Part shown: positions 1,934 through 50,806 of the stretch, piece after piece
Position numbering within the stretch: the first letter of the stretch is position 1
Layout: each line of letters starts with the position of its first letter
Origin: Candidatus Kuenenia stuttgartensis
Lineage (GTDB): Bacteria > Planctomycetota > Planctomycetia > Isosphaerales > Isosphaeraceae
DNA length: 64,000 nt
Assembly (NCBI GenBank): GCA_945865635.1
Contig: CAMBEP010000006.1
Location: 62,001-126,000 of the forward strand
Reading direction: 5' to 3'
Program-made: the position numbers and the translations under genes
The notes under the pieces: model-generated
What the model was told of the DNA's origin: nothing
What the model saw: the letters and a program-made list of their open reading frames with translations, nothing else
Databases searched by the model: none

Positions 1934-2545
1934 ATGGCTGAACTACAGATTGTCTATGTACTTACAAACCCTGCCATGCCAAGCCTGGTGAAGATCGGTC
2001 AGACATCGTCAATGGATGCCAAGAATAGACTTGTTCAGCTTTACACGACGGGTGTTCCATTCCCATTCAAACTTGAATTTGCGTGCAAAGTCTCAAATTC
2101 TATAGAAGTGGAAAAAGCTTTGCACCAAGCTTTTGCGCCATATCGAGTGAATCCGAGTCGCGAGTTTTTCGCGATTGAACCCAATCAGGCGATTGCGATT
2201 CTCAGGCTGCTTCATACAGAAGATGCAACAGTCGAATTTCAATCGCAAGCGGTATTGATCGATTCGCAGTCCATTGCAGCAGCAGAACAATTCATTAAAA
2301 GAAGACCAAATTTAAATTTTGACGAGATGGGCATTCCGACCGGCTCCGTGCTAAATTCCATTCATAATGACATGATGGTCATTGTTGCCGGACCACGCAC
2401 TGTAAGACTTGGGGACGACCAAATATCATTGACAGCAGCAACAAGGCAAGTGCTTGAGATTGATTATTCGGTAAACCCATGCCGGCACTGGACCTATCAA
2501 GGCAAGAACCTGAACGATATTTATAATGATACGTATCAGGTCTAG
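1934..2545 (+). CDS. GIY-YIG-like (T5orf172 / MUG113) nuclease-family protein
   Basis: 203 residues. The first roughly 95 match the T5orf172 branch of the GIY-YIG superfamily: IVYVLTNPAMPSLVKIGQTS at residues 6-25 supplies the Y-V-L-T-N and V-K-I-G elements, followed by a FACKVSN strand and an EKALHQAFAPYRV.P.REFF segment with the Glu/His/Phe pattern of the family. Residues roughly 125-200 form a second small domain (G.VL..I.N...V.V.G.R.V...D, then TAATRQVL and W.YQG..L..IYN.TY) that resembles C-terminal modules seen in other GIY-YIG genes but which I cannot name. Whether it cuts DNA is not known. Codon use is AT-richer than flanking genes and an IS630 relic follows, consistent with an acquired island. 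Confidence 0.7.
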   Translation: MAELQIVYVLTNPAMPSLVKIGQTSSMDAKNRLVQLYTTGVPFPFKLEFACKVSNSIEVEKALHQAFAPYRVNPSREFFAIEPNQAIAILRLLHTEDATVEFQSQAVLIDSQSIAAAEQFIKRRPNLNFDEMGIPTGSVLNSIHNDMMVIVAGPRTVRLGDDQISLTAATRQVLEIDYSVNPCRHWTYQGKNLNDIYNDTYQV

Positions 2546-48285: not shown

Positions 48286-48323
48286 CAGGACCAATGGCAA
48301 TTGTCATTGGTCCTGATCTTTTT
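48286..48323 (+). terminator. Intrinsic terminator of topA
   Basis: Perfect 11-bp stem (48286-48296 with 48305-48315), 8-nt loop, then ATCTTTTTT. Textbook rho-independent form. The right arm overlaps the last codons of the convergent cyclo-ligase gene. Confidence 0.85.
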
Positions 48324-48930
48324 TAAAAATATCGATTCCTGTGGGTAGAATCAGGCCATCAAGCCTTTGATCCCAGCATTCCATTGGCACCTTTGGAATC
48401 ACCTGTGACTCCAGCCCTACCCCCAATCGCGGAATCTCCTTGCCGATCAAGGCCAGCGTTCTGTCATAAAAACCAGCGCCTCGGCCCAGCCTGCCGCCCC
48501 GTCGGTCGAAGGCAAGCCCTGGAACCAGAATCGCTACGGCCTGATCAGGCAGTACCAGTTCAAGAGCCTTCCGGGGTTGTGCAAGGCCGCTGGGCGCAAT
48601 TTCGAGGTCAGCCCCAGGCTCGCGCACCCTATGGAACGAAAGACTTCTGGTGGCCCATTCCAGGCGAGGCAATGCGAACGAGACTCCAACAGATTCGAGT
48701 GTTTGCAACCATGGGCGGAAGTCGGGCTCTTCAATCAGAGTCGGCCAGAAGGCAAGGATCAGGCTGTCCTTCGCCGTAGCCATAGTTACCAGCCACTGGT
48801 TCAACTGGTCGATGATCGCCTCTTCCTGAGCCACCCGTTCCAGCTTGGAGAGGGCCCGGATTTTCTGGCGGATTTCTTCCCGGATCGATTTCTTTGCTGC
48901 AGATAAACAAAAATCATCAGGCTGAATCAT
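48304..48930 (-). CDS. 5-formyltetrahydrofolate cyclo-ligase (YgfA/MTHFS family)
   Basis: 208 residues. The enzyme uses ATP to turn 5-formyl-THF into 5,10-methenyl-THF. Family motifs: AAKKSIREEIRQKIRAL at the N-terminus, ILAFWPTLIEEPDFRPWL, VAILVPGLAFDRRGGRLGRGAGFYDRTL (the G-R-x-G-x-G-x-x-Y-D signature) and the LGVGLESQVIPKVP end. A candidate 6S RNA lies about 40 nt upstream on the same strand, the same pairing as ssrS-ygfA in proteobacteria. Confidence 0.92.
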   Translation of the reverse strand: MIQPDDFCLSAAKKSIREEIRQKIRALSKLERVAQEEAIIDQLNQWLVTMATAKDSLILAFWPTLIEEPDFRPWLQTLESVGVSFALPRLEWATRSLSFHRVREPGADLEIAPSGLAQPRKALELVLPDQAVAILVPGLAFDRRGGRLGRGAGFYDRTLALIGKEIPRLGVGLESQVIPKVPMECWDQRLDGLILPTGIDIFKKDQDQ

Positions 48931-48969
48931 CTTCAGCTATGGTCCTGATCCAGGTAGGAATGGAAGAAC

Positions 48970-49136
48970 GGAAAGAATCCTCCGCCGATGCCGTTGCGAA
49001 CGGTTTTGAGAACCCGCAGTGAATAGGTGGGAGCCTAGAGTCACATCTTCCCAAGGGAAAGAACCCGATCGGCCCCCTACGGGTGTACATTGGTTCGCCA
49101 AAATTGACGTTCCTGACGCGCACAGCAGAGGATTCA
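48970..49136 (-). ncRNA. ssrS: Candidate 6S RNA
   Basis: Read on the minus strand, an 11-bp closing stem joins 49125-49135 (5' end) to 48975-48985 (3' end) with one U-G pair; GGAA/UUCC can extend it outside. Inside are a second stem (5' UUUUGGCGAACC with 3' GGUUCUCAAAA), unpaired segments of about 12 and 9 nt opposite each other (a central-bubble candidate), another stem (5' UAGGGGGCC with 3' GGCUCCCACCUA) and a terminal hairpin around CUUUCCC/GGGAAG. A small hairpin CCGUU-CGC-AACGG lies on the 3' side. The overall shape, length of about 165 nt and place upstream of the YgfA-family gene match 6S RNA, which binds sigma-70 RNA polymerase. TAGACT/TTGATT boxes (16-nt spacer) lie just upstream, placing the start at the closing-stem G. 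Identification rests on structure and context, not on sequence homology. Confidence 0.55.
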
Positions 49137-49141
49137 CTTCC

Positions 49142-49169
49142 AGTCTATGTCCTTGAACCTCAAAATCAA
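49142..49169 (-). promoter_or_regulatory. Possible promoter of the candidate 6S RNA
   Basis: On the minus strand, TTGATT (49164-49169) and TAGACT (49142-49147) are separated by 16 nt. Expected start about 7 nt further, at 49135, coincides with the first base of the closing stem. It lies between the RNA and the terminator of the DUF4912 gene. Confidence 0.4.
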
Positions 49170-49190
49170 GGAAAACACACGGAATGTCAG

Positions 49191-49220
49191 AAAAAAAAGC
49201 CGCCCCGAACGGGGGCGGCT
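49191..49220 (-). terminator. Intrinsic terminator of the DUF4912 gene
   Basis: On the minus strand a 9-bp GC-rich stem (49212-49220 with 49198-49206) is followed by a run of eight T (49198-49191). Textbook form, 50 nt after the DUF4912 stop; it separates that gene from the candidate 6S RNA. Confidence 0.85.
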
Positions 49221-49270
49221 GAGAATTTCAAGTGCTGCAATCGAGCACACAAAACCAGAAAGCGGCTTGA

Positions 49271-50347
49271 TCAGAAATCGCAGTTGTCGTGCGTTTGCTG
49301 TTCCATGACCTTGGTGTTGCGCTCGACCGCCAGAATGATCGTCCGCTCTTCGCTCCCATCGGCTGAACAGGCCACGGCAGGAATGATCTGGCGAGAGTCG
49401 GGCATGTGAAACCGTACACTGAATGAGCCGTCCGACTGAATCGGCACCGGCTCGCCCTGAAGCGTAACCTTGGCCGACGGATTGGTTGTCCCGAAAATCA
49501 CCAGCTCTGCGCCAATCTCGAACTTCAGAGGGATGTCCATATTGGTCAGATAATTTGACGGCAGTTGGGTCAGCGATGTCTTATGGATCGGCTGATGAAA
49601 CCGATCCTCAAACAGCTCAATCAACTCGTTGGAAAGGTGACGAGATTCCGGGTCATTATAACGAACCTGAATCCGATGGATTTCCTCCTGGGCAATGTGC
49701 CAGTCTTCCTCGATCGATGTCGACATGGAGACCGGTGGCATCATCACCACATTCGATTTTCCAACAATGAAAAAGCTTCCCCGACGCGTGATGAAACCTA
49801 GATCAATACGATACTTGCGGCTCGGATGAGTCACATTGATGTACCAGTTGTTCACATCGCTCTGAATGAATTCGTCACGCTCATGACGCTCACTCATCGC
49901 ACTGGTCTCTTCGCTCGTCACATCCATCACACGCAAGACGGCCTTGGAACCATGCCAAAGCTGACCCATCGCCGCACGGGCACGCTCGATCGTAGAGTTG
50001 CAAAGCTCCCAGTAAATATGGATCCAGTAAGGGTCCCTGGCAACCGCCAGAACCCGGTCCCTCGTTCCGTGGTTCTGAATCCGGCCATGCCATGGACGAA
50101 GCCCGAGCCGATCATTCAGAGGATTGGAATGATCACCCGGCTTGCCGTGGCCATGGTACAAACCCGCCGATTTTTTAAGATTCTTCAGAGGGTTATTCTC
50201 CAAAGTATCCGTTTCGTCGGTCGATGGACTGCTCAGTGCACGGATCAATTGATCCTTACGCATGGCGTGCCAGCCTGGAATGCCCCGGTCGCGAGCCATT
50301 CGGGCAAGAATTTTTTTAGTCTGCTCTTGGATCAAATCATTTGACAT
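49271..50347 (-). CDS. DUF4912 domain protein
   Basis: 358 residues from ATG 50347 (GGAGAG in the leader). N-terminal residues about 5-35 (QTKKILARMARDRGIPGWHAMRKDQLIRAL) look like a SAP/Rho-N helix-extended-helix that binds nucleic acid. The DUF4912 core follows: RDRVLAVARDPYWIHIYWEL at about 100, then ERARAAMG and RVMDVTSEE, a strand-rich part with NNWYINVTHPSRKYRIDLGFI, and a C-terminal beta-rich end with LVIFGTTNPSAKVTLQGEPV and GSFSVRFHMPD resembling an Ig-like fold. Function of DUF4912 proteins is unknown; the D-P-Y-W-x-x-x-Y-W-E motif is the hallmark. Single gene with its own terminator. Confidence 0.85.
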   Translation of the reverse strand: MSNDLIQEQTKKILARMARDRGIPGWHAMRKDQLIRALSSPSTDETDTLENNPLKNLKKSAGLYHGHGKPGDHSNPLNDRLGLRPWHGRIQNHGTRDRVLAVARDPYWIHIYWELCNSTIERARAAMGQLWHGSKAVLRVMDVTSEETSAMSERHERDEFIQSDVNNWYINVTHPSRKYRIDLGFITRRGSFFIVGKSNVVMMPPVSMSTSIEEDWHIAQEEIHRIQVRYNDPESRHLSNELIELFEDRFHQPIHKTSLTQLPSNYLTNMDIPLKFEIGAELVIFGTTNPSAKVTLQGEPVPIQSDGSFSVRFHMPDSRQIIPAVACSADGSEERTIILAVERNTKVMEQQTHDNCDF

Positions 50348-50806
50348 GGGGAAGACTCTCCGTTTAAGTCGGAATGAGCCAAACTGCCGGATCGGCCGCC
50401 ATCCATGACCCGGTGAAACATCCATGTTGATCAAAACCCCTAAAGTTTATGAGGAATCAGACTATGCCCAATTAAGGGCGCAGACGAATCTGCCAAGTCC
50501 AATCCGCCAATCGAAATTGGGATTTAAGTTAGGTGTGTCGGGAGTAATGTGCGTAGGTAGGTATGTTGATTCATAACAGGTCGGTGACAAGCGTGTCAAG
50601 TGGCTAGATTGAACAATTTTCCTTAAGAGATTCCTAAAGCGTGTTCAGGCTATCAGGCAAAGTGGTTTCAGGGAGTCAACCTAACCTTTGATATCAAAAT
50701 GAATTTAACAGGTGCAAAGAGAACCGTAATCAGGACGGTTTTAACGAAAAAGAATTTGCCTGAAAAACGACTTTGTGAAAAATTTCGCTTTTTCGGGACC
50801 TCAGTG
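50348..50806. other. Intergenic region upstream of the ATP synthase promoter
   Basis: About 460 nt, AT-rich, no gene, tRNA or known RNA seen on either strand. Divergent between the DUF4912 gene and the atp operon. Confidence 0.4.

Follow-up and report, generated by a model that had tools for sequence, protein, structure and literature searches.

The stretch of DNA analysed here (64 kb, hereafter the window) is taken as part of a genome of the Isosphaeraceae (Isosphaerales, Planctomycetota). On its minus strand, the spacer between a DUF4912 gene and the 5-formyltetrahydrofolate cyclo-ligase gene ygfA carries a match to 6S RNA, preceded by promoter-like boxes (Table 1). 6S RNA is a small RNA that restrains the bacterial transcription enzyme. 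A first-pass annotation of the sequence had proposed such a gene between the DUF4912 terminator and the cyclo-ligase gene, and the coordinates, strand, shape and genomic context that it gave all proved right. The search that it suggested, with the Rfam model RF00013, returned 61.7 bits for the minus strand (gathering threshold 46.4; E 8.5e-10 for the 64-kb window), and the alignment spans model positions 1-187, that is, the whole model without truncation. At the curated Rfam thresholds, no family other than RF00013 matched anywhere in the 64-kb window, and a search of the 5.4-Mb genome for 6S RNA gave no second match. A family-specific covariance model (R1, see below) scored the same segment at 120.7 bits, the window sequence itself being in the training set.

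Table 1. Features of the 6S RNA locus in the window and examples of the 5' hairpin in relatives
Feature	Position	Strand	Basis or remark
6S RNA gene (ssrS)	48975..49134	-	RF00013 match, covariation in relatives, family covariance model
6S transcript, predicted (likely)	49135 to about 48972	-	
-35 box TTGATT, 16-bp spacer	49164..49169	-	sequence; TTG kept across 34 family loci
-10 box TAGACT	49142..49147	-	sequence; TAnnnT at near-fixed spacing across 34 family loci
pRNA template stretch, predicted; pRNA 5'-AUUGGUUCGCCAAAAUUG	49089..49106	+	alignment with the Rfam model; first base opposite 49089
ygfA/fau, 5-formyltetrahydrofolate cyclo-ligase	48304..48930	-	PF01812, E 1.2e-29
DUF4912 gene, upstream neighbour	49271..50434	-	PF16258, E 3.5e-29
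Intrinsic terminator of the DUF4912 gene, strong	49198..49220	-	sets that gene apart from the 6S promoter
Extra 5' hairpin, examples in relatives	L022:1661-1684, L140:2314-2337, L030:1663-1684	-	hairpin detector

Fold, predicted promoter and predicted pRNA start of the 6S RNA

The minus strand of 48970-49136 is predicted to fold into a single long interrupted hairpin with a minimum free energy of -69.3 kcal/mol, compared with -51.9 ± 4.2 kcal/mol for dinucleotide shuffles (z -4.18; 0/200 as stable). Besides the closing stem, the fold contains a second stem and a GAACC/GGUUC stem, together with an open centre and a terminal hairpin. The second stem, open centre and terminal hairpin drawn in the first-pass annotation are thus all present; its 11-bp closing stem is also there, though longer than 11 bp if one-base bulges are allowed. 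We then aligned 28 Isosphaeraceae 6S sequences, which form a rod of six helices with 94.9% of cells paired. Two-sided compensatory changes were found at 14 base pairs, and the covariation score (0.212) exceeded that of shuffled alignments (0.111 ± 0.007; 0/500 as high). The signal was lost when the 3' partners were slid by 1-3 columns, the true structure scoring far above the slid versions, and it backs the closing stem, the open central bubble and the terminal stem-loop. With a cmsearch hit and conserved pairing in relatives both found, the 6S proposal survived the test that had been named as able to refute it.

These results also bear on two simpler accounts of the segment. Genomes of this kind have many GC-rich hairpins, and one could arise without function in a GC-rich spacer; the gathering-level family match, the compensatory changes with covariation above both shuffled and slid controls, and the fixed synteny make this a vanishingly small prospect. 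The same extremely low probability attaches to the idea that the region is part of a small protein gene, for which the two open frames that cross it (48917-49123 and 48937-49137; 66-68 codons) might speak. Neither gave a Pfam match, in-frame stops interrupt the two overlapping frames in 23/28 and 21/28 of the aligned sequences, and indels break the frame in relatives, the lengths being free modulo 3. The protein-coding reading was rejected on the Pfam negative and the broken frames.

The promoter-like boxes, TTGATT and TAGACT, put the predicted +1 at 49135, at the foot of the closing stem, as had been noticed from the sequence at first pass. They match only 8/12 consensus bases, which is why a strict promoter scan did not list them; the pattern TTGnnn/TAnnnT, with a near-fixed spacing of 16-17, nevertheless recurs throughout the 34 family 6S loci. 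As the predicted pRNA start we take position 49089, located by aligning the sequence with E. coli 6S RNA, whose pRNA start is known. With the 6S RNA as its template, the pRNA carries plus-strand sequence, and the predicted product (AUUGGUUCGCC...) has a purine as its first base and GG at positions 4/5. Both properties hold in 33/33 family members in which the predicted start could be located, in keeping with the rule of a purine start with GG at 4/5 or 5/6 described for lactic acid bacteria and beyond (PMC8414754).

On the basis of the family match, the covariation, the gene order, the promoter pattern and the pRNA start, we hold with very high confidence that the region is the ssrS gene of this member of the Isosphaeraceae, a gene that would be transcribed by the housekeeping polymerase and act through promoter mimicry and pRNA release, with possible read-through into ygfA. 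RNA polymerase with the main sigma factor would start at 49135 and produce an RNA of about 160 nt, which would fold into a closed rod interrupted by a bubble and mimic a melted promoter. If it behaves as in E. coli and B. subtilis, the 6S RNA would occupy the housekeeping polymerase during slow growth and would be released once the polymerase has transcribed a short pRNA, using the 5' side of the bubble as template. We infer this standard mechanism, sequestration of the housekeeping polymerase through promoter mimicry and release via pRNA synthesis, from what is known in those model systems. Invariant CCC..GGG..CCC..GGG runs around the bubble had suggested pRNA-driven refolding; this idea was dropped because holding the template stretch unpaired did not favour the switch hairpins in 32 of the 33 sequences folded.

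Compared with E. coli ssrS, the window's gene shares the full-length RF00013 match, the closing stem, the central bubble, the terminal stem, the predicted purine pRNA start with GG at 4/5 and a ygfA gene immediately downstream. It differs in length (about 160 nt versus 184), mainly through a shortened terminal arm, and in its upstream neighbour, which is zapA in E. coli and the DUF4912 gene here. The Ms1 RNA of Actinomycetota has a 6S-like shape; however, its binding partner is core polymerase and its genomic neighbours are different (PMC9130861), and the window matches RF00013 only. The segment is therefore a genuine, ordinary 6S RNA, a type of RNA already known, in a lineage where it has been little noticed.

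Linkage to ygfA within the Isosphaeraceae

The ygfA gene begins 44 nt downstream of the 6S match on the same strand, and no terminator (hairpin plus T-run) was found between the two in the window. Some transcripts would therefore probably run into ygfA, and the 6S RNA would then be expressed together with the folate enzyme. In E. coli, a 6S-ygfA transcript is processed to mature 6S RNA (cited in PMC7641849); given that no intervening terminator was found, similar processing is plausible in this genome. The same arrangement is what one would expect if the structure were a cis-regulatory leader of ygfA, a riboswitch or attenuator and no free-standing RNA. This alternative is very improbable: the match covers the whole 6S model and is to no riboswitch, a terminator-like hairpin with a T-rich tail parts the 6S gene from ygfA in about 26 of the 34 family loci, and in other planctomycete families 6S precedes rarA or follows pheT, in many cases at a distance from ygfA. 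A riboswitch of any kind, the THF riboswitch for example, was rejected, as RF00013 was the sole gathering-level match in the window and an Rfam search of 48900-49260 found no riboswitch at E<=1.

The assignment as 6S RNA extends to the family at large. Of the 59 genomes in the relatives set, 44 gave an RF00013 match, and in 27 the match exceeded the cut-off. The family-specific covariance model, built from the 28-sequence alignment, recovered 6S RNA in six well-assembled family genomes missed by the Rfam search (82.6-154.3 bits); none of the six had been used for the model, and all six loci lie just upstream of ygfA. In a laxer Rfam search (E<=1) of these six genomes, two gave no match, one matched elsewhere only, and none reached the cut-off. 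The earlier remark that this RNA is easy to miss in the phylum is well borne out by these six complete genomes, whose 6S copies the family model finds and the Rfam search does not. The only two family genomes that still gave no 6S match are 68% and 77% complete, and they gave no ygfA match either.

The ssrS-ygfA context anticipated at first pass recurred at every family locus compared, ygfA lying downstream of 6S on the same strand in 34/34, with gaps of 21-241 nt (median about 60 nt) and one exception of 1,149 nt. In G006, another genome of the family, the 6S and ygfA matches are on different contigs. The DUF4912 gene lies upstream on the same strand in 24/24 family loci where it is within reach. 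A 6S-ygfA link, a typical though not obligatory trait of 6S genes, is known in Proteobacteria (PMC7641849), and these loci extend it beyond that group. They also firmly establish 6S RNA in a family of planctomycetes whose genomes are large; the published work consulted on the phylum had reported it as absent from other members (see below). Locus L031 (CAMBZY010000502.1), titled 'Candidatus Kuenenia stuttgartiensis', is apparently the same contig as G001, a same-genus relative of the window that is Isosphaeraceae by the evidence here; its public label looks wrong.

An extra hairpin at the 5' end

In 31/31 family genomes outside the window's genus, a hairpin detector found an additional hairpin (5-9 bp) that lies between promoter and closing stem and has its 5' end <=3 nt from the predicted +1. 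The same detector found hairpins in 4.9/31 shuffled sequences (maximum 12) and in 6-7/31 segments taken further upstream; among other planctomycetes it reported 4/30, of which two (L007 and L008) look real. Across 28 genomes the arms of this hairpin covary (95.2% of cells paired; 0.555 versus 0.327; 0/500), and G-U pairs are frequent in them. Covarying arms with frequent G-U pairs point, at the sequence level, to an element that acts as RNA rather than as a DNA operator. The cap-like hairpin may shield 6S RNA from 5'-end-dependent decay or guide its processing. It appears to be undescribed, a narrow literature search having found no mention of such a 6S 5' hairpin.

In the window and in L002 and L005, which belong to one genus, neither the extra 5' hairpin nor the 3' terminator was found. 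The detector's 5' 'hairpins' in L002 and L005 were discounted as they overlap the -10 boxes, and its one 3' hairpin, in L002, was discounted as a terminator as its tail has 2 T only.

6S RNA neighbourhoods across the Planctomycetota

In a sample of 246 genomes drawn evenly from the phylum, 107 had 6S RNA, and we compared its position by eye with those of ygfA (PF01812), rarA (PF12002) and pheT (PF03484). Outside the Isosphaeraceae, at least 19 genomes have pheT as the immediate same-strand neighbour upstream of 6S, at least 13 have rarA directly downstream, and the order 6S-rarA-ygfA occurs in at least four (L112, L113, L114 and L115), one of which (G147, contig 290; L114) has the complete series pheT-6S-rarA-ygfA. 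In Firmicutes, 6S is known to be linked to rarA (PMC8414754), so that this series merges the rarA context of Firmicutes with the ygfA context of Proteobacteria. Because a single planctomycete locus holds both links, the data suggest, though they do not prove, an old shared neighbourhood from which rarA was later lost in the Isosphaeraceae. The rarA-linked 6S-1 RNA of Bacillota (PMC8414754) belongs to the same RNA family and resembles some other planctomycete families in this linkage; in the Isosphaeraceae, by contrast, rarA does not adjoin 6S. The order also differs: in lactic acid bacteria rarA precedes 6S, whereas in planctomycetes it follows 6S on the same strand.

We regard as evenly balanced the broader proposal that the Isosphaeraceae 6S RNA is a structural variant with a covarying hairpin at +1, which the window's genus lacks along with the 3' terminator, and that pheT-6S-rarA-ygfA may preserve an ancestral order behind the Firmicute and proteobacterial contexts. 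The 5' hairpin and this gene order offer testable leads on how 6S RNA is produced and how old its gene order is.

Many planctomycete 6S matches fall below the Rfam cut-off, the window's being above it. In G058, a sub-threshold match of 26.9 bits (L171:1660-1853, plus strand) lies just upstream of rarA. The Rfam cut-off thus probably misses real planctomycete 6S genes, and absence calls made from Rfam alone are unsafe on account of this locus. Four genomes of another family (f5) gave no 6S match by Rfam at E<=1 or by the Isosphaeraceae model, and in two of them no 6S was found beside rarA, pheT or ygfA. A divergent 6S RNA in f5 was rejected, as neither model matched in these four genomes; the negative is consistent with loss, although the family model is tuned to Isosphaeraceae. 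Published work on the phylum did not find 6S RNA in Thermogutta, and a published screen, as cited in a later paper (PMC5673643), reported none in Pirellula and Rhodopirellula. The latter result agrees with that for f5 and not with absence from the whole phylum.

At two loci (G156:C457:13409-13590, L162, and G102:C25:7160-7333), 6S was called on the strand opposite a nearby pheT, whereas the two share a strand in other genomes; the wrong strand of a near-palindromic rod may have been called, or the segment is possibly inverted. The Isosphaeraceae model gave no match in G102. In G040, where no 6S RNA was found, two Acido-Lenti-1 RNAs (RF01687) lie upstream of rarA in opposite orientation, at L168:2136-2180 (minus strand, 41.6 bits) and 2265-2309 (plus strand, 46.2 bits).
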